Shown here in pieces: positions 43,372-51,351 of a stretch of DNA of 57,161 nt. The DNA lies in the NCBI GenBank assembly GCA_934446455.1, contig CAKSEE010000014.1, positions 1 to 57,161 of the forward strand, written 5' to 3'. Below the pieces are notes generated by a model that worked only from the letters and a program-made list of their open reading frames with translations, was not told where the DNA came from and did no database searches. Position numbers and translations under genes: made by a program. Source of the stretch: an uncultured Oscillospiraceae bacterium (GTDB lineage: Bacteria > Bacillota > Clostridia > Oscillospirales > Ruminococcaceae). Numbering within the stretch: the stretch's first letter is position 1; each line of letters begins with the position of its first letter.

Positions 43372-43401
43372 ACGGGGCTGTCGCAAAACAGCCCCGTTTT
43401 T
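43372..43401 (+). terminator. Terminator of the GH25-GH3 operon
   Basis: 10-bp perfect stem ACGGGGCTGT/ACAGCCCCGT, 6-nt loop, then TTTTTAT. Confidence 0.92.
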
Positions 43402-43406
43402 ATGTA

Positions 43407-44345
43407 TCATGTGTGCGGGTAATACTTGTCGTAGTGAACCAGCTCGTCAAGCAGCATAGGAACCATTTCCTTTGCGTTTTCGTCGTTGAACTGGCACGTG
43501 CCTACCGCCATGTGACCGCCGCCGCCGTATTTCAGCATAAGGCTGCCGACGTTTACGCGGCTTGTGCGGTTGAGGATAGAATAGCCCACCGCGCACGAGC
43601 AGCCCTTTCCGCCCTTGCCGTCAACTATCCAGCAGGAGATGTTCTGCTCGGGATAAAGCGAATAAATAAGGAAGCGGTTGCCCGTGTAAATCGGCGAAAC
43701 GCCGCGCAGGTCGGTGATGATAACATCGCCCTCAACGCGCGTGTACTTGTGCACCATCTGCTTGAAAAGCTCGGTCTGCTCGTTGTAGAGCTTTATGCGC
43801 TCCTGTATGTCGGGCATGGCGAGAATCTCGTCGGTGCTCATGTAAGCGCAGCACTTAAGCAGCTTTTCCATAAGCTGGTAGTTGCTTATCGTGAAGTTTC
43901 TGAATCTGCCAAGACCCGTTCTGGGGTCCATAAGAAAGCCTATAAGAATCCAGCCCGTGGGGTGGAGTATTTCCTCACGCGTGAGGTTGCCGCTGTCAAC
44001 CTTGTCTACGGCCTCCATAAGGTCGTCAAAGTTCGGAAAGCGCTCCCTGCCGCCGTAGTATTCATATATGATACGCGCGCAGCTCGGGGTGATACGGCTC
44101 TCGCCCTTGTATTTGCCCTTGTACTTTTTGCGCTCCTCTTCGCTTGAGTGATGGTCGAACCACAGCCCTGCACCCTCAACGAACGGAACGTTTGCAAGGC
44201 AATCGTTCTCAGTCACGGGAACAAGACCGTCCTGAAGATCCTTAGGGTGGGCAAATGTCCATGAATCGACAACACCCGCGCACAAAAGCAGCGCGCCGCA
44301 GGCAAGTCCGTCAAAATCCGAACGCGTAATAAGTCGCATAGCCAT
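43407..44345 (-). CDS. DHH-family phosphoesterase
   Basis: 312 residues from ATG 44345, with GAGAGG upstream. Motifs: ITRSDFDGLACGALLL (DxD metal ligands), GLWFDHHSSEEE (DHH) and YGGGGHMAVGTCQF (DHHA1 GGGH). The family includes NrnA-like nano-RNases and cyclic dinucleotide or oligonucleotide phosphodiesterases; this subtype's substrate is not evident. It is isolated, ending at a terminator, 144 bp after the transglutaminase gene. Confidence 0.93.
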   Translation of the reverse strand: MAMRLITRSDFDGLACGALLLCAGVVDSWTFAHPKDLQDGLVPVTENDCLANVPFVEGAGLWFDHHSSEEERKKYKGKYKGESRITPSCARIIYEYYGGRERFPNFDDLMEAVDKVDSGNLTREEILHPTGWILIGFLMDPRTGLGRFRNFTISNYQLMEKLLKCCAYMSTDEILAMPDIQERIKLYNEQTELFKQMVHKYTRVEGDVIITDLRGVSPIYTGNRFLIYSLYPEQNISCWIVDGKGGKGCSCAVGYSILNRTSRVNVGSLMLKYGGGGHMAVGTCQFNDENAKEMVPMLLDELVHYDKYYPHT

Positions 44346-44467
44346 TGCTGAGTACCTCTCTCTGTGTGGTGATTGCCCAAAGCGCATGCCATGGGCGGAA
44401 CGCCCCGCCTTAACGGCTCAGGTGCTCCATATCTACATTATAGCAAATCCGCAGACAAAAATCAACA

Positions 44468-44501
44468 GCATTTTCAAAAAAATAAACGTTTATTTTTTGG
44501 A
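44468..44501 (-). terminator. A/T-rich palindrome over the transglutaminase stop codon
   Basis: On the minus strand AAAAAATAAACGTTTATTTTTTT spans the TAA stop and its end is a T tract; may end the nitrilase-tubulin-transglutaminase transcript. The stem is A/T-only apart from the centre. Confidence 0.5.
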
Positions 44502-47108
44502 CATAATTTTCCAGAGTCCGACCCTGCGCAGCCCTGCCGCCTTTTGTGCCCCGGCATAAAGCTCGCAAAGCAGCCCGTGCAGAACGCTCCGCTGTTCCTC
44601 GTCCGCGCTTTCGCCGCCGAAAGCCGCCTGCTGAAGCGCGTCCGCCTGCTTTGCAAGCCCCGTGCCGAAGCGGCTGTCGCACCGTGCGAAGAACGCCGCG
44701 GGAAGCTCGCCGTTGGCGGGCGTCATCTTGAGAAACGCCAGAATGTCCGTTATCGCCGTGTAGATGTCGCGCGCGCTCTCGCCCGCGTCGCCTGCGCCAA
44801 GGTTTGCAATGGAGCGCTCTGCGCGCTTTTTAAGCCCGTAAAGCGCGTACACCGCGCACGCCGCCGCAATGATAAATACGGCTGCCGCTCCCGCTATGGC
44901 AAGGATAAGCGTGATATTCACGCGGGTTCCTGCGGGCGCAGGCGTGGGCGCAGTGGTCTGCACGGGTGCGCCGCCTTGCGTGGCGGCGGACGTAACCGGC
45001 GCGGGACGCGTTGTCGCGAACGACGCTGTAGTCCTGATCGCAGGCTGCGGGGGCGCGGAATTTGCCGCCGAACTTGTCGGGTCGAACGTCACCCAGCCGT
45101 ACTGGTCAAGGTATACCTCCGTCCACGCGTGGAGATTCTTCGCGCGAAGCGTTACCGTATCGCCGAGCGATGGATCCGCCACGAAGCCGGTGCAGTAGCG
45201 CGCAGGTATGCCGCACTCGCGCAGCAGCAGCGTGAGCGCGCTTGCATAAAGCGAGCAGTGCCCGCTCCGGGTTCTTGTCAGAAAGCTCATCACGGGGTCG
45301 GCAGCGCCGTTGTCCATTGTAAGCGAGTAGGTATAGTTGTCGCGCAGATAGTCGCTTATAAGCTGCGCGCAGGCGTATCGGGAGTAAGCCCTGTTGCTTA
45401 CGTTATTGCTCCACGGCTTGTCCTCCAGAAGCTCGGAAAGCTGCTCGGAAAGACCCGTTTCCCACAGGAAATCGTCAAGCCTGCCCGCCATTCCGTCCGG
45501 GACGCCGCTGTAAACGTCGCTTACATATTCAGAATATTCCGTAAGCACCGCGCCCTCATTCATTTCCGGCACAACCACGCTGAAAATGCTGTTGGGCGAC
45601 ACCTTCCATTCCTCAAAGCACATCAGCACGGTTTTGAGGAACTGCGTCCCGTCGCCGCTGCTGTCCGTCGAGGTGTACGCAGGCACAAGCGCGGTGCACT
45701 GCACGGTGTTCACGTTGTCAAAGCTGCCGTTTACGCGCACCACATAGTCGCCGTAAACGTCGAACAGCTCGCTTGCGTAGTAGGAGAACTCCGACGTATA
45801 CGCGGGCAGGAACACAACGGACGTGTCGCACAGGTAATCTATCGTAACATCGGCAACGGAAACTATGCTGTCCGCTTCATACCCGCCTGAGAGCAGCATT
45901 GAGTGGATAACGCGCGCCTCGCACGGGCGGTAATCCCTGTCAAGGCGGAGCTTATCGCCGCTGCGCCATGCCTTTGGCTCGTTGTTCACGGGAGAGGACC
46001 ACGACGTACCCGTAAATTCCATGCCGATATCGCCGCGCAGGTACACAGGGGCGCTTCCGCTTACCGAAACGCGCAGTATCTCCTCGTCGCCCGTGCCCGG
46101 GGACACGACGTTAAGCGAGCTTTTGCGCCCGTCCCCCTGCGGCGTTGTGAAATATTCCGACAGCGTGCCGCCGTCGAACGGAGAGGCGGTGATACCCTGC
46201 TCCCCGCCAAAGCCAGTTACAAACTCGTAAACAGCGCTGTAGTCTATGCTGCTGCCCCTGCCGAAAGCCGCCGAGGCGACAACGCCCGCGCAGCCGAAAA
46301 GCGCCGCGCAGTACATTCCCACCGAAAAATACTTTGAATAGTACACCGCCGACATACTTACGCGCCTCGGGTAGTCCGCCCTTGCCATGCCGCGGCGGAA
46401 CTCCCGCTCCTCAAAAGCGGCAGCCCTGCGGTAGTCCGCGCCGCCGCCGCGCACGGGGGCAAGCCCTCCGCGAAAGCAGACGTTCACCGCAGCCGCAGCC
46501 GCGGCAAGCGCCGCAAACGGCAGCAGCCACGCATTGAACTCCAGGCGCTCCGCCGCAAACAGCGGAACCGCCATTACAATAAGGCAGCAGACTGGCGACA
46601 AAAACGAAGGCTTGCGCGCAAACGCCGCCGCGCACACCAGCGCGAACAGCACGCACATAAGCCCGAAGCCAAGCTCCACCCCGCCGACATAGTCCGCGTT
46701 AAGCTCCGTCAGCAGCTGCGGGTCGTTGAACAGCAGCCCCTGCGGGTTGAAAAATCGCCCCTGCGCGCTTTGCATTATGGCGTCCGCAAAATACGCGAGC
46801 CGCGCGCGCGCCTCGTCCGAGCAGGTAAACGCAGCCCATGCCGCGCCCGCGGCTATCACGGGCAGCGCTATCCCGCGCCTTACAAACGCAAACACAAGCG
46901 AGAAGCCCGCCGCCGCAGCGGCGCACACCGCGCCCATCACCCAAAGCCGAACGGGCAGCTCGTATTCCGTCAGCAGAAACATCATTCCGCAGACTGCCAA
47001 CGCGCAGCACCATAGCAGCTTTTTAAGCACCAGCAGCGGCGCTTTCGGCTTCTCGCCGTAATATCTGTCATAAACCAGCACCCCGCAGGGCGCGTTTCTT
47101 TTACTCAT
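44490..47108 (-). CDS. Membrane transglutaminase-like protein (TgpA type)
   Basis: 872 residues. Residues 30-210 have about five or six membrane segments, one more lies near 260-280, then an extracellular region. The transglutaminase core is at about 590-680: RSGHCSLYASALTLLLRECG with Cys618, HAWTEVYLDQYGW with His660, and Asp676 in TFDPTSS, a complete triad. A Thr/Pro/Ala-rich linker and a final membrane segment (NITLILAIAGAAAVFIIAAA) lead to a cytoplasmic C-terminal domain. Such proteins act on wall or surface proteins as proteases or transamidases. It lies 33 bp after the tubulin-like gene, in one operon. Confidence 0.92.
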   Translation of the reverse strand: MSKRNAPCGVLVYDRYYGEKPKAPLLVLKKLLWCCALAVCGMMFLLTEYELPVRLWVMGAVCAAAAAGFSLVFAFVRRGIALPVIAAGAAWAAFTCSDEARARLAYFADAIMQSAQGRFFNPQGLLFNDPQLLTELNADYVGGVELGFGLMCVLFALVCAAAFARKPSFLSPVCCLIVMAVPLFAAERLEFNAWLLPFAALAAAAAAVNVCFRGGLAPVRGGGADYRRAAAFEEREFRRGMARADYPRRVSMSAVYYSKYFSVGMYCAALFGCAGVVASAAFGRGSSIDYSAVYEFVTGFGGEQGITASPFDGGTLSEYFTTPQGDGRKSSLNVVSPGTGDEEILRVSVSGSAPVYLRGDIGMEFTGTSWSSPVNNEPKAWRSGDKLRLDRDYRPCEARVIHSMLLSGGYEADSIVSVADVTIDYLCDTSVVFLPAYTSEFSYYASELFDVYGDYVVRVNGSFDNVNTVQCTALVPAYTSTDSSGDGTQFLKTVLMCFEEWKVSPNSIFSVVVPEMNEGAVLTEYSEYVSDVYSGVPDGMAGRLDDFLWETGLSEQLSELLEDKPWSNNVSNRAYSRYACAQLISDYLRDNYTYSLTMDNGAADPVMSFLTRTRSGHCSLYASALTLLLRECGIPARYCTGFVADPSLGDTVTLRAKNLHAWTEVYLDQYGWVTFDPTSSAANSAPPQPAIRTTASFATTRPAPVTSAATQGGAPVQTTAPTPAPAGTRVNITLILAIAGAAAVFIIAAACAVYALYGLKKRAERSIANLGAGDAGESARDIYTAITDILAFLKMTPANGELPAAFFARCDSRFGTGLAKQADALQQAAFGGESADEEQRSVLHGLLCELYAGAQKAAGLRRVGLWKIMSKK

Positions 47109-47141
47109 GAATGTTCTTATTCCCTGATAAAGCTCATGCCG

Positions 47142-49430
47142 TTACTGTGTGAATATGTGTATACCGTGTTTTTTCAGCGAATCGTTGATGTAAGCGTAGT
47201 GCATATTCTCCCATTGCTGATAGTCCCTGAAGCCCTCGAGCTGAACGCCGCCCTTTATCTGCGTCACAACAGCCGCCCTGCCGAGCGTCGAGCCGTTCCA
47301 GATGTAGTTCATGCCCTTGTGCGACGCGCGCAGAGCCGCTATCTCGTCCTGCCGCGTGTATTTCGGGCATATCACCCTGTCAAGCGTGAAATCGTCCTGC
47401 GCGGGCGCTGCGGTGCTTACCCCGCTCAGGCACTCCTCAAGAGAGGGCGCAATGCCGCCCACGCCGAAAAACGCGCATATCTCAGAAAAGTTCATGGAAA
47501 GCAGCGTGTTGAAGCACTTTGCAACGATGTTCACCATCGCCCGTGCAAGCCCGCTTTCGTCGTCGTCGGGTATCTCAAGCATTCCCGATGCTTTGAACGC
47601 CCGCGACAGCACCTCATCGGGCAGCTTTTCCACAAGCTCGTCAAGCTTTGCGGACACAGCGGGGTCGGACACGGAAAACGCGTCGCGCGCGCACTCGTCC
47701 TCGTTCTCGCGGGATATCTGCTCAATTATCGAAGCGCGGTTCATCGCAATGTTCTCGAATGCCTCCGCAGCCTTTGCAAGCGTCCCCTCGAGATAGTCGC
47801 CCAGCGTGTCGTACTCCTGCCTGTAAAACTCGCGCATGGTAGCCGAGGTCTTGAGCCTGCGCGAATACTCCGCGTAGTCGCGCAGCTCGAAGATATACTG
47901 CTCCACCGCCTTTCCCACGAAAAGCGCGGAGGTCTTTACCTTCATATACGCGCCGCTTACAAGGCTGCGCGCACGCTCCACCTGCTCCTCCATATCGGAG
48001 TATTCCGAGTTTTCCTTTGCAATGGCGACGCGCAAATCCGCAAGGCACTTCTTCACTATCTCTATGGCGTAAAAGGGTCCCTTTTCCATATCGGTCTTGG
48101 CAGCCTCGCAGGTGGAGATTATCTCGTCCACTATCTCCTTGCCGCATACCTCCGCGCCCTTTTTGGTAAGGTCGGACATCTTCTGCGCCCAGTCGTCAAC
48201 ATACCCCTGCGAGCCGTCAGAGCTTATCTTCAGCGCACGCGGCGAAAACGTGGGGTTCAGCCGCTCGTCAAACTCCAGCTCGGGCAGTGCGCCCGCCTTT
48301 GAAGCCAGCAGCATTCCGTCGGGCGTTACCCTGCTGCCGAACTGCCCCAGCTGCATCTGTCCCACAGAGTTGGCGTTGAGCCTGCGGTTAAGCAGCGTGA
48401 ACACTCTCACGGACAGGTAGGACACTATCTTGCCCATGGGCACCTCGCGCACGCTCACGCCGTAGGTCAGCCAGCGGAAGTCGTGCGGCTCGTGGGGCTT
48501 GAGCATATTGTAGGACATTATGCGCTCCGCGTCATCGTCCCTGCCGAACACCATTTCCGCGCGCGAAAGTATCTTCTCCGCCGCGGTGTCCACCGTAAGC
48601 GCATAGCTTGCAAGCGCGGGCAGTATCTGTACTGAATTGAACGGTGCCTTATCCGACTTCACCTCAAACGAAGCGGAGTACCTCTGTGAAAACGGCTTTT
48701 TGTGGTACTGGAACAGGTCGAGCTCGTTTCTGGTTATCATGGTGTTGGCGTAGTAGTTGCCAAGCTCGCGCTGGTCCTCCTCAAAAAGCGCCGCCGTGTC
48801 CGCCGCGAAAAGCGAAGCGTTGATTTTTACGGGGTACGACGCGTCCTCGAAAAGCGAGTGCAGAATGTACGCCATGTCGATGAACATTCCCCCGAAGAAC
48901 ACGTCGCCCATGTTGCCCGTTATCACTATCTCAAGCGAATCCGAAGTTCCCGCGAAAGCCGCTATCGCCTCCCCCAGGCGCTTAAGCAGTTGCTTGATGC
49001 AGTGGAAGAGCGCCACGCGCCCGCACTGCCGCTTTGTAAGGCCGTAGGTCGGCGTTGCGGGGGAGTAATTCTTAAGTCCCGTGTCGAACCAGTCGAGCGC
49101 ATACTGCGGCAGCCGCGCAGGACTGTTAAGGTACTTGTATATCGCTTCCTCGGGTACTATCGGCAGGCACTCCGACGGCGCAAGCCCCGTCCCCTCGCAC
49201 GCCGCATTTTCAAGCAGCCTATCCTCGCCTATCGCAAAGAACCGCACCGCCTTGTCGTCCGTGCCGAAACGGCGCTCGGTCAGGTGCTTGCAGCGAAGCA
49301 GGCAGTCAACGCCGTTCCTGCCTATGCCGATGACGAACAGGCGGTTGCTGCCGAACGCGTCCTTATGCCCGTCATATAGCTTCAGAATACGCTCGGGACT
49401 GAGCCATGCTGTTTTTCTTTCTATTTCCAT
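47142..49430 (-). CDS. Tubulin-like (Tubulin_2-type) protein
   Basis: 762 residues, no signal or membrane segment. The start NRLFVIGIGRNGVDCLLRCK (residues 29-48) fits the first Rossmann Gly-rich loop of tubulin-like family proteins (Pfam Tubulin_2), and EIVITGNMGDVFFGGMFIDM (167-186) stands where the FtsZ/tubulin GTP-binding signature should be. That loop lacks the GGGTGTG pattern, so GTP binding is uncertain. The C-terminal 350 residues are helical, with coiled-coil character (AEAFENIAMNRASIIEQISR). It is operonic with a transglutaminase and a nitrilase. Assignment rests on local motifs and size. Confidence 0.6.
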   Translation of the reverse strand: MEIERKTAWLSPERILKLYDGHKDAFGSNRLFVIGIGRNGVDCLLRCKHLTERRFGTDDKAVRFFAIGEDRLLENAACEGTGLAPSECLPIVPEEAIYKYLNSPARLPQYALDWFDTGLKNYSPATPTYGLTKRQCGRVALFHCIKQLLKRLGEAIAAFAGTSDSLEIVITGNMGDVFFGGMFIDMAYILHSLFEDASYPVKINASLFAADTAALFEEDQRELGNYYANTMITRNELDLFQYHKKPFSQRYSASFEVKSDKAPFNSVQILPALASYALTVDTAAEKILSRAEMVFGRDDDAERIMSYNMLKPHEPHDFRWLTYGVSVREVPMGKIVSYLSVRVFTLLNRRLNANSVGQMQLGQFGSRVTPDGMLLASKAGALPELEFDERLNPTFSPRALKISSDGSQGYVDDWAQKMSDLTKKGAEVCGKEIVDEIISTCEAAKTDMEKGPFYAIEIVKKCLADLRVAIAKENSEYSDMEEQVERARSLVSGAYMKVKTSALFVGKAVEQYIFELRDYAEYSRRLKTSATMREFYRQEYDTLGDYLEGTLAKAAEAFENIAMNRASIIEQISRENEDECARDAFSVSDPAVSAKLDELVEKLPDEVLSRAFKASGMLEIPDDDESGLARAMVNIVAKCFNTLLSMNFSEICAFFGVGGIAPSLEECLSGVSTAAPAQDDFTLDRVICPKYTRQDEIAALRASHKGMNYIWNGSTLGRAAVVTQIKGGVQLEGFRDYQQWENMHYAYINDSLKKHGIHIFTQ

Positions 49431-49467
49431 GATAACACCCCTGAAATCGCTTGTATGTCAGGCAGCC

Positions 49468-50235
49468 CTATTCGTAAAAGCTGCGGTAAAGTTCCGTTCT
49501 GCGGTCAGCCGCCACGGGAAACGCCGCACGCGCCGCAAAAGCGTCGCTCGGGTCGATTTCGGCGAAAACCGCCTGCTGTGAAGCGCCCTGCGCCGCCGCC
49601 ACGGTTTCTCCGAGCGGCGAGTAGACCGCCGTGCCGCCGTCGTAGACCACTCCTCCGCCCGTACCCGTGCGGTTGCACAGGATAACGAACGACTGCGTTT
49701 CTATGGCGCGCGCCCTTGCAAGCGCGTCAAGCTGTGCGCGGCGGGAAGCGGGCCAGTTCGCCGCGCACACTATCACGCCGCATTCGCGCGAGAGCCGCTG
49801 ATAAAGCTCGGGAAAGCGCAGGTCGTAGCAAATCGTAAGCCCCGCGCGCACTCCCGCGATATCCGCGCACACAGCGCGTTCTCCCGCGGAAAACGCCTCG
49901 CCGCCTATGGTAAACGGGTGCAGCTTGTCGTACTGCGCCACGACGTCTCCGTGCGCGCACACGCACATTCTGTTGAACAGCCTGCCGCCCTCCCGCGCGC
50001 CGTAGCCGAAGCACACAGCGCTCTCAGACCCGCGCGTAAGCTCCCTGAAGAACCCCACCGTGCCGCCGCCTGCGTCCTCGCACAGCGAAAGCTCCTGCGA
50101 GAAGCCCGTAAGCGAAAGCTCGGGAAACACAACAAGGACGCAGCCCGCAGCCTGTTCGTAAAAACTGCGGCAAAGCGCCATGTTCGCCTGTTTGTCCTCC
50201 CATACGGTATCCGTCTGAACGGCGCATACCCTCAC
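49468..50235 (-). CDS. Nitrilase-superfamily carbon-nitrogen hydrolase
   Basis: 255 residues from GTG 50235; GGAGG ends 9 nt upstream and VRVCAVQTDTVWEDKQANM is the normal family start. The catalytic triad is complete: Glu39 (FPELSLTGF), Lys104 (YDKLHPF) and Cys136 (TICYDLRFPE). Closest in style to omega-amidase/YafV-like enzymes that hydrolyse amides such as alpha-ketoglutaramate. First gene after a consensus promoter; the tubulin-like gene follows at 37 bp. Confidence 0.93.
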   Translation of the reverse strand: MRVCAVQTDTVWEDKQANMALCRSFYEQAAGCVLVVFPELSLTGFSQELSLCEDAGGGTVGFFRELTRGSESAVCFGYGAREGGRLFNRMCVCAHGDVVAQYDKLHPFTIGGEAFSAGERAVCADIAGVRAGLTICYDLRFPELYQRLSRECGVIVCAANWPASRRAQLDALARARAIETQSFVILCNRTGTGGGVVYDGGTAVYSPLGETVAAAQGASQQAVFAEIDPSDAFAARAAFPVAADRRTELYRSFYE

Positions 50236-50268
50236 CGAAACGCACCTCCGATACTTTTCCTTATCTAT

Positions 50269-50297
50269 ATTATATAACGATTCCGCAATATTGTCAA
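50269..50297 (-). promoter_or_regulatory. Consensus promoter of the nitrilase-tubulin-transglutaminase operon
   Basis: Minus strand TTGACA (50292-50297), 17-bp spacer, TATAAT (50269-50274). Confidence 0.92.
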
Positions 50298-50368
50298 CAC
50301 AAAAATGTAAAAAACGCATAAAAACAAAAGGCAAATCAAGGATAATTTGCTTTATAATAAACAAAAAA

Positions 50369-50393
50369 TGCGGACGCTTGACAACCGTCCGCA
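50369..50393 (-). terminator. Orphan terminator-like palindrome overlapping a plus-strand promoter
   Basis: TGCGGACG/CGTCCGCA, 8 bp with a 9-nt loop; on the minus strand followed by TTTTTTGTTTATT, a classical terminator. No minus-strand gene ends here. It encloses the -35 box of the promoter at 50378, so it could instead be an operator. Confidence 0.6.
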
Positions 50394-50406
50394 AAAGTGC
50401 TATGAT
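50378..50406 (+). promoter_or_regulatory. Promoter ahead of the STAS-like remnant and GNAT gene
   Basis: TTGACA (50378-50383), 17-bp spacer, TATGAT (50401-50406). The following 70 nt can form CCGG-CT-GCAT/ATGC-CA-CCGG (about 50422-50449). Confidence 0.8.
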
Positions 50407-50480
50407 ATTCACGGAAAGACCGGCTGCATAAAGTCAATGCCACCGGAATAACAGGAAACCCGATGAGCTGCCCGGCATAA

Positions 50481-50825
50481 GAAAAAACGTTTATTCTTCC
50501 CTTTGCGGGCGGAGAAATATGGCTTGAGCGTCCGGATGGGATATATCAGTATACTGCGCCTGCCATTGAAAGGCTCCGCACGGATACTGTGATATTCCGC
50601 CGCCCGTCCTCTCCGGGACATATCACATTCGTACCCGACGAAACGCATATTACGGAAGAGTTGATTTCCGGGATAACAGACGCGCTCATAAGCCCCGGCA
50701 AAAGGTTTATGCGCGCAGCCCTTGTCGGGGCGGACGCGCCCTCCCGCAGAAAGCTGAAATTGCTTTTATACGGACACGGCTTTGCAGTCAGTTTTTTTGG
50801 CGGCATTGAACCTGCAAAAGAATAG
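50481..50825 (+). pseudogene. Remnant of a small gene without a start codon
   Basis: Open from after the TAA at 50478 to the TAG at 50823, about 114 codons: TFILPFAGGEIWLERPDGIY, HITFVPDETHITEELISGIT, PGKRFMRAALVGADAPSRRK and LLLYGHGFAVSFFGGIEPAK. The sequence has protein-like composition and resembles small clostridial STAS-like proteins. No ATG with a ribosome site is present before codon 37 (GTG 50589, without a clear site). Either the 5' end is lost or an unusual start is used. It overlaps nothing on its strand and lies 37 bp before the GNAT gene. Confidence 0.55.
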
Positions 50826-50862
50826 CTCCCGGACGAGCAGAATATCTGAAAGAGTGACAGAC

Positions 50863-51351
50863 ATGACAGTAAGGGCATACAACATTTCGGACATACCGCG
50901 CATGGCGCAGATATGGAACGAGGTCGTGGAACAGGGCGAGGCGTTCCCGCAGACCGAAAAGCTGAGCGAAGAAGCCGCGCGCGAGTTCTTTGCCGCGCAG
51001 AGCCATTGCGGCGTATGCGAGGACGATGGCGGGCTCGTGGGGCTTTATATCCTCCACCCGAACAATGTCGGCCGCTGCGGGCATATAGCCAACGCAAGCT
51101 ACGCGGTGCGCACGGATATGCGCGGGCGCCATATAGGCGAGCTGCTTGTGAGCGACTGCATAAAAATGTGCGGTGAGCTTGGCTTCGGCATACTGCAGTT
51201 CAACGCGGTCGTAAGCACCAACACGCCCGCGCTCAGGCTCTACAAAAAGCTCGGGTTCACGCAGCTCGGCACAATACCGCACGGCTTCAGGCGCGACGAC
51301 GGCACATATACCGACATTATCCCGCACTATATTGAGATAATAAAGCGCTGA
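50863..51351 (+). CDS. GNAT-family N-acetyltransferase
   Basis: 162 residues from ATG 50863. GNAT fold: TVRAYNISDIPRMAQIWNEV at the start, ASYAVRTDMRGRHIGELLV carrying the acetyl-CoA loop (RGRHIG), and FNAVVSTNTPALRLYKKLGF in motif B. It transfers acetyl from acetyl-CoA to an amine, with an unknown substrate. The ribosome site (GAAAGAG) is modest. Probably transcribed from the promoter at 50378 and ended by the hairpin at 51393. Confidence 0.92.
   Translation: MTVRAYNISDIPRMAQIWNEVVEQGEAFPQTEKLSEEAAREFFAAQSHCGVCEDDGGLVGLYILHPNNVGRCGHIANASYAVRTDMRGRHIGELLVSDCIKMCGELGFGILQFNAVVSTNTPALRLYKKLGFTQLGTIPHGFRRDDGTYTDIIPHYIEIIKR

Follow-up and report, generated by a model that had tools for sequence, protein, structure and literature searches.

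What does a tubulin-like gene do directly ahead of a gene for a membrane transglutaminase? The question is raised by an operon on the minus strand of a 57,161-nucleotide stretch of DNA from an uncultured Oscillospiraceae bacterium (contig CAKSEE010000014.1; "the window"), in which the gene for a tubulin-like protein (TUB) lies between a nitrilase-family gene and the gene for a transglutaminase-family membrane protein (TGL). An initial annotation had described three minus-strand genes, spaced by 33-37 bp, behind one full-consensus promoter; the gaps were indeed 37 and 33 bp, and the promoter-like site is a full sigma-70-type match. Transcription would proceed from the nitrilase gene through TUB and TGL to a DHH phosphoesterase gene, the last after a gap of 102 bp. 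We propose that TUB is a divergent Tubulin_2 protein that acts as the fixed partner and scaffold of a TgpA-type TGL, and that the pair descends from a split operon; for this explanation as a whole, the probability is put at roughly 0.55. Feature coordinates are collected in Table 1.

The genome collection was scanned with TUB as the seed, which yielded 37 loci, or 38 with the window. In all 38, TGL lay directly behind TUB in the same orientation; the gap between them had a median of 25 bp (-4 to 332) and showed no excess of promoters. TUB was cut by the contig start in four of these loci, and TGL was in two pieces in one (L028). The arrangement is therefore not confined to one strain, and because the genes adjoin at every locus, their pairing is more than chance. 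Identities to the window proteins ranged from 29-45% for TGL and from 38-65% for TUB (37 loci). Other constant genes around TUB, TGL and the DHH gene were considered and rejected: no outer gene cluster occurred in more than half of the 38 loci (open reading frames antisense to the three genes aside).

Presence and absence were counted in genomes taken without completeness figures. Within one genus, 41 of the 43 species genomes yielded TUB, each time with a TGL match on the same contig; in G400, which did not yield it, TGL starts 60 bp from a contig end. No full-length TUB was found outside the genus in the family, class or order samples searched. In the family sample, 5/197 genomes matched TUB (three full-length, all in the genus, and two partial). 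In the class sample, for which at most two first-look candidates per genome were scored, 3/391 matched, with a single full-length protein from the genus. With the Pfam model, 16 of the 197 genomes in the order sample matched; 14 carry canonical Tubulin_2 (best E-values 2.6e-42 to 1.8e-60), and the other two were G003, a member of the TUB genus, and G079, the latter by its FtsZ alone. The linkage could be mere positional inertia within this genus, without functional coupling. The restriction of full-length TUB to one genus would suit that view, as would the DHH gene, which keeps its order in 35/35 loci despite a promoter-like site of its own. It is nevertheless very unlikely, given that the TUB-TGL order outlasts the sequence divergence noted above and that the short gap, with no promoter excess, is kept while the upstream gene changes.

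Protein distances were correlated over 26 of the 38 loci, giving 0.82 for TUB-TGL and ca. 0.62 for pairs with the DHH protein. In a separate test with 10 of the 12 genomes G001-G012 (45 non-independent pairs), distances among TUB, TGL and an unlinked DUF58 protein (see below) correlated at 0.79-0.885, and pairs with a second TgpA at 0.57-0.70. These correlations were taken as suggestive and were not accepted as proof of co-evolution. It is quite likely that TUB and TGL act together.

The Tubulin_2 profile (PF13809) matched the window TUB with 51.2 bits (curated cut-off 27) and all 26 TUB sequences at E <= 0.01. When the TUB family was compared to 16 canonical Tubulin_2 proteins in hhalign, a probability of 99.7 (E 1.1e-25) was obtained over 690 columns, nearly the whole length. 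A search of the TUB sequence against solved structures returned no match (best E 0.21, a flavin monooxygenase). Structure prediction of the 762-residue protein gave the two-domain tubulin/FtsZ fold with its N-terminal domain, and the fold thus offers no ground for discarding the cytoskeletal assignment. A tubulin fold is regarded as close to certain. Its sequence places TUB among the Tubulin_2 (FtsZ-like) proteins as a divergent member, and it is called a derived subfamily rather than canonical FtsZl1 because the GGGTG(S/T)G signature of the T4 loop is absent. TUB was rejected as the FtsZ of cell division, since 41/43 genomes of the genus encode FtsZ separately and the window protein has no FtsZ_C match.

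After the N-terminal domain, the TUB model has a strand at residues 321-329, a helix at 332-353, a helical region extending to ca. residue 675, a strand at 683-688, a helix at 694-703, strands at 709-714 and 719-727, and a helix at 737-753. We read this order as that of the tubulin C-terminal domain, S7-H9 ... S8-H10-S9-S10-H11. In the model, the helical part is accordingly an insertion that splits this domain. The long helical C-terminus of the initial annotation thus stands as a helical stretch, but not as a C-terminus, since the model places it inside the fold. Fifty structural alignments among the matches listed, for which end points and totals were available, span TUB from residue 28-29 to 749-758 with just 301-323 residues aligned, which is consistent with a split fold; among these matches, identities to CetZ, TubZ, FtsZ and tubulin were 7-14%. 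From these four TUB differs by the insertion of ca. 300 residues and by its degenerate T4 loop. Mean entropy was 1.89 in the helical part (residues 405-675, the most variable), 1.18 in the N-terminal domain and 1.31 at residues 676-753. The split may hold for Tubulin_2 generally, because hhalign covers nearly the whole of TUB against canonical members. One TUB (L031:2847-5471, apparently G397 C63) has 874 residues, including ca. 100 extra in-frame residues near position 690, in the last portion of the fold.

Residue conservation was counted over 84 aligned sequences. The loop names T1, T4 and T7 are applied to TUB here, with the T4 correspondence backed by hhalign. The glycine loop that had been noticed at residues 35-40 proved invariant in its three glycines, and the suspected tubulin signature at 171-183 was verified as conserved but degenerate, aligning with GGTGSG of canonical relatives. 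The T4 loop contacts phosphates in tubulin and FtsZ. At this position, canonical relatives have GGTGSG or GGTGAG, and TUB has G-D-x-F-F-G-G (GNMGDxFFGG in the alignment); the GGGTG(S/T)G signature was looked for in the TUB alignment and was not found. The sequence suggests that the phosphate site has been remodeled, perhaps lost. N229, which aligns with an Asn of a canonical member, was conserved in 80/84 sequences. In the candidate T7 loop, D299, A301 and N308 were found in 84/84, D298 in 82/84 and D300 in 80/84. These residues (the T1 glycines, N229 and the acidic D299), together with the two-domain fold, would suit an active cytomotive filament, in which TUB binds and hydrolyzes GTP via a remodeled T4 loop, treadmills at the membrane and moves TGL as FtsZ moves septal enzymes; because FtsZ is encoded separately in 41/43 genomes, a second system is possible. 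The replacement of GGTGSG by G-D-x-F-F-G speaks against such a filament, which is considered unlikely.

The C-terminal segment of TUB is near-invariant, and its residues 751-762 are disordered in the model (pLDDT, the predicted local distance difference test, < 50). As modeled, the C-terminus is a conserved flexible tail. FtsZ binds its membrane partners through this kind of tail.

Transglut_core with a Cys-His-Asp triad was found in 31/31 TGL sequences, and the complete Cys618/His660/Asp676 triad claimed from the window alone was corroborated in every one. The periplasmic-domain fold of TgpA was recovered. TgpA_N (DUF3488) matched 10/31 sequences, the window protein not among them, and DUF4129 matched 0/31 at E <= 0.01; the homologue in L124 matches DUF4129 in its C-terminal part. 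There is hardly any doubt that TGL is TgpA-like. Its chemistry may be cross-linking or proteolysis.

The origin of the pair was examined through TGL homologues in other genera of the family. Fifteen regions were selected manually among the stronger, longer matches (62/100 genomes matched; several similar-scoring ones were left out). The order MoxR-DUF58-TgpA was found in 14; in the fifteenth, the TgpA gene begins 46 bp from the contig end. A Pfam check of the operons in G303 and G079 returned AAA_3, DUF58 and Transglut_core. In G079 (L124:5201-13385, C87), the operon is followed directly by a second MoxR gene and two more genes in a tandem arrangement. Near TUB, MoxR or DUF58 was found at 0/38 loci (flanks of at most 10 kb, often less, for the 37 fetched loci), and a MoxR-DUF58 pair with no TgpA behind it was present in 20/20 genomes of the TUB genus that were examined. 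Nineteen of these pairs had been chosen from DUF58 matches, and the stretches fetched around them held no TGL-profile match; in G003, the contig ends ca. 800 bp past DUF58. The pair in G008 is 1.7 kb from a second TgpA gene, which is encoded on the other strand. A second TgpA, distinct from TGL, was present in 15/15 genus genomes fetched, with an adjoining DUF58 gene in at least 14.

The TGL tree was built from 17 of 38 TUB-linked TGLs, the full set of 15 homologues from the family and 12 of 15 second TgpAs. The TUB-linked TGLs fell into a single clade (100/100), which G303 joined next (97/89), followed by G079 (100/99). In the MoxR and DUF58 trees (13 of 14 family pairs, 17 of 20 unlinked pairs), the unlinked proteins formed one clade apiece (100/100), which G303 joined first (MoxR 90/81, DUF58 98/93) and G079 next (MoxR 96/95, DUF58 97/93). 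The operon of G303 is followed by asd-dapA-dapB; in G401, the unlinked MoxR-DUF58 pair adjoins the same three genes, inverted, as if TGL had left its old place. Because TGL homologues elsewhere follow MoxR-DUF58, the unlinked pair is retained and the three trees agree, it appears that a known envelope module came apart and that its transglutaminase was joined anew to TUB. That the TUB-TGL pair arose by the split of an ancestral MoxR-DUF58-TgpA operon, whose third gene now stands behind the tubulin-like gene, is considered quite likely.

TUB might instead have taken over the role of MoxR-DUF58 for TgpA, as a non-polymerizing conformational switch or adaptor for TGL. It lies directly before TGL in the operon, the place taken by DUF58 in related genera, and GTPases, some with tubulin-family proteins, are described as standing in for the MoxR-like ATPase in certain conflict systems (excerpt of PMC7159879). 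However, the MoxR-DUF58 pair most related to the TgpA operon is kept in all 20 genus genomes examined, which suggests addition and recoupling, and a takeover is judged distinctly unlikely. With MoxR-DUF58 retained, the simplest view is that TUB was added to the module and now organizes TGL from the cytoplasm.

The genes PA2875 and PA2874 of P. aeruginosa are presumably MoxR and DUF58 genes. They form an operon with tgpA (PA2875-PA2874-tgpA); tgpA was reported to be essential for growth, and cross-linking by the TgpA domain was reported in vitro (excerpt of PMC3507681). The bifidobacterial PFNA cluster has the order aaa-atp-duf58-tgm (excerpt of PMC8430577). Compared to MoxR-DUF58-TgpA operons, TGL is preceded by a tubulin-like gene, and MoxR-DUF58 is unlinked in the TUB genus.

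Makarova and Koonin described FtsZl1/Tubulin_2 in 2010, with vWA, GTPase, kinase and OmpA partners, and detected no similarity of its C-terminal domain to those of known FtsZ and tubulin (PMC2875224). TUB shares with FtsZl1 a homologous N-terminal tubulin domain (PF13809), a helical extension, a predicted membrane role and an occurrence beside FtsZ. It differs in its length (ca. 760 residues vs. 985-1301 in canonical homologues of this order that are uncut by the region end), its degenerate T4 signature, its partner (a TgpA-like transglutaminase instead of the published ones) and its model, which completes the tubulin C-terminal domain after the helical insertion. Genes for vWA, GTPase, kinase or OmpA-like proteins, which accompany Tubulin_2 commonly though not universally, were absent among the four neighbors scanned at 43407-51351, the wider flanks of the 37 loci having been clustered rather than scanned with Pfam. 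A 2023 paper on evolution sets Tubulin_2 aside as divergent, with N/C-terminal extensions (excerpt of PMC9871819). In Synechocystis, a Tubulin_2 gene, sll0445, was linked to proteins of pilus assembly, and phototaxis was impaired when the gene was disrupted (excerpt of PMC9880817). A TgpA partner for Tubulin_2 in general was rejected: among 15 canonical Tubulin_2 regions, only L080 matches the TGL profile (weaker transglutaminases may escape it). There (L080:16038-19901, G092 C60), a canonical Tubulin_2 gene lies directly behind a 355-residue transglutaminase-family gene, not a TgpA, at a gap of 15 bp; the product has a Transglut_core match of 90 bits and a lipobox-like N-terminus, and the locus is a second, different tubulin-transglutaminase neighborhood.

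Tubulin-family proteins were also reported by Kaur et al. (2020) in GTPase-centered conflict systems of Firmicutes, described as analogous to MoxR-centered ones, the Firmicutes versions carrying a C-terminal coiled coil (excerpt of PMC7159879). On that precedent, TUB-TGL might be a conflict or defense system, as proposed for other bacterial tubulin-family clusters. The tubulin-family protein is common to both, but the GTPase, vWA and FNIII partners of those systems, and effector families, were absent among the four neighbors scanned (a defense-gene library was not searched), and the presence of TUB in 41/43 species genomes and the shared TGL/MoxR/DUF58 tree pattern look like vertical descent. 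Such a role is highly improbable. No description of a tubulin-like/TgpA gene pair was found in the open-access literature searched; TUB-TGL is a new, constant combination of known protein families.

In the proposed mechanism, TUB would be a cytoplasmic scaffold that polymerizes or clusters head to tail through T1 and T7, as in the tubulin contact; with a degenerate T4 loop, it would hold nucleotide weakly or not at all. Its near-invariant disordered tail would dock on the C-terminal domain of TGL in the cytoplasm, on MoxR-DUF58 or on both, and TUB would thereby position or gate the extracytoplasmic transglutaminase or cysteine-protease domain of TGL. The mechanism as stated is tentative, at somewhat below even odds. 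More speculatively, a tubulin homologue whose phosphate loop was largely given up might form the cytoplasmic part of a cross-linking machine that spans the membrane and includes TGL and the unlinked MoxR-DUF58; its assembly inside the cell would then dictate where or when the enzyme acts on the envelope. The initial suggestion that a cytoskeletal-type protein organizes or drives a membrane machine is supported in part: the tubulin-like fold and the constant TGL partner speak for it, and the nitrilase falls outside the core.

Several observations weigh against the proposed explanation. Foldseek superpositions of TUB were poor (for CetZ1, a TM score of 0.23 by query and 0.48 by target, with a root-mean-square deviation of 12.5), and helical pore-forming toxins were also among the matches listed. 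The replacement of T4 by D-x-F-F makes a nucleotide-driven polymer doubtful. G303 and G079 sit on long branches, and the MoxR support for G303 (90/81) is below the starred level. The dapB-dapA-asd footprint was seen at 1/20 pairs only, with the three genes inverted there, and that genome (G401) holds MoxR-DUF58, but full-length TUB or TGL was not found in it. Distance support is weak: TUB-TGL reached 0.79 vs. 0.70 for TUB and the second TgpA, and TUB and TGL correlated with the unlinked MoxR at 0.68 and 0.63 only. Finally, the linkage is seen in one genus only, and part of it may thus be inertia.

The remaining genes are less constant. The nitrilase gene preceded TUB in 7 of the 31 loci holding at least 1 kb of upstream sequence and was rejected as a core member on this count; it is a lineage-specific accessory. 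Of the three-gene unit first annotated, the TUB-TGL part therefore stands and the nitrilase part does not. Back to back with the nitrilase promoter is a divergent promoter-like site (50378-50406, plus strand, 11/12 with TG), which faces a GNAT acetyltransferase gene at 50782-51351. The DHH gene came next after TGL in all 35 loci long enough to show it, the other three ending within TGL. A promoter-like site was present in 33 of the 35 TGL-DHH gaps vs. 12.5 expected, and all 33 sites share the hexamers TTGATT and TATAAT at 17-bp spacing, an unusually rigid arrangement. In view of this site, of a different gene behind TGL in G400 and of its presence in 4/14 family genomes outside the genus, the DHH gene was rejected as a fixed member of the unit and is a frequent neighbor with its own promoter-like site. 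Its protein matched the profile of PDB 7d62, PggH, with an E-value of 6.3e-99 (positions 3-300 of 312). PggH of Vibrio cholerae is a pGpG-specific phosphodiesterase (excerpt of PMC10600005); the likeness, over most of the profile length, is one of sequence alone, and what sets the DHH gene apart is its own promoter-like site and its standing as a neighbor of TUB-TGL. In 14 loci, the DHH protein is 86-93% identical to that of the window, vs. 38-65% for TUB (37 loci); it is slowly evolving and patchy outside the genus.

Table 1. Features of the TUB-TGL locus in the window.
Feature	Position	Strand	Basis or remark
TUB, tubulin-like (Tubulin_2), 762 residues	47142..49430	-	Core member
T1 glycine loop of TUB, residues 35-40, G-x-G-x-x-G	49311..49328	-	G35, G37 and G40 in 84/84
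T4 loop of TUB, residues 171-183, TGNMGDVFFGGMF	48882..48920	-	Degenerate counterpart of GGTGSG; hhalign to canonical Tubulin_2; G172, G175, D176 and G181 in 84/84
Candidate T7 loop of TUB, residues 297-308, RDDDAERIMSYN	48507..48542	-	Placed by order of secondary-structure elements (helices 276-292 and 300-305, strand 321-329)
Helical insertion of TUB, ca. residues 354-675, between H9 and S8 of the tubulin C-terminal domain	47406..48371	-	Secondary structure of model; names assigned in this analysis
Near-invariant C-terminal segment of TUB, residues 737-760	47151..47222	-	Y737, W740, N742, Y745, A746, D750, L752, K753, K754 and G756 in 84/84
TGL, TgpA-like membrane transglutaminase-family protein, 872 residues	44490..47108	-	Core member
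Catalytic triad of TGL: C618 (45255-45257), H660 (45129-45131), D676 (45081-45083)	45081..45257	-	Invariant in 31/31
C-terminal helical domain of TGL, ca. residues 760-872, predicted cytoplasmic	44493..44831	-	DUF4129-like by position; hydropathy peak at 744; model helices within 779-871
Nitrilase-family (CN_hydrolase) gene	49468..50235	-	Accessory; 255 residues from GTG behind promoter; Pfam PF00795, 130 bits
PggH-like DHH phosphoesterase gene	43407..44387	-	Frequent downstream neighbor; conserved protein starts at ca. residue 15
Promoter-like site ahead of nitrilase-TUB-TGL, TTGACA-17-TATAAT	50269..50297	-	Sigma-70-type, 12/12; consensus match only
Separate promoter-like site of DHH gene, TTGATT-17-TATAAT	44437..44465	-	Found in 33/35 TGL-DHH gaps
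Terminator-like stem after DHH gene	43372..43397	-	11 pairs, 7 GC, then AATTTTTCTG; consensus match only

To our knowledge, neither FtsZl1/Tubulin_2 proteins nor MoxR-DUF58-TgpA operons have a settled function, and a genus that joins Tubulin_2 to the TgpA module gives each a testable partner. The pair predicts a tubulin-like scaffold that acts on a membrane transglutaminase. If this is true, it would connect a tubulin-family protein with protein chemistry outside the cytoplasm, a link undescribed as far as searched, and a C-terminal domain split by a helical insertion would revise the view that the C-terminal part of Tubulin_2 is unrelated to that of tubulin. The TUB-TGL pair suggests that these uncultured gut bacteria use an internal scaffold to organize chemistry at the cell surface.

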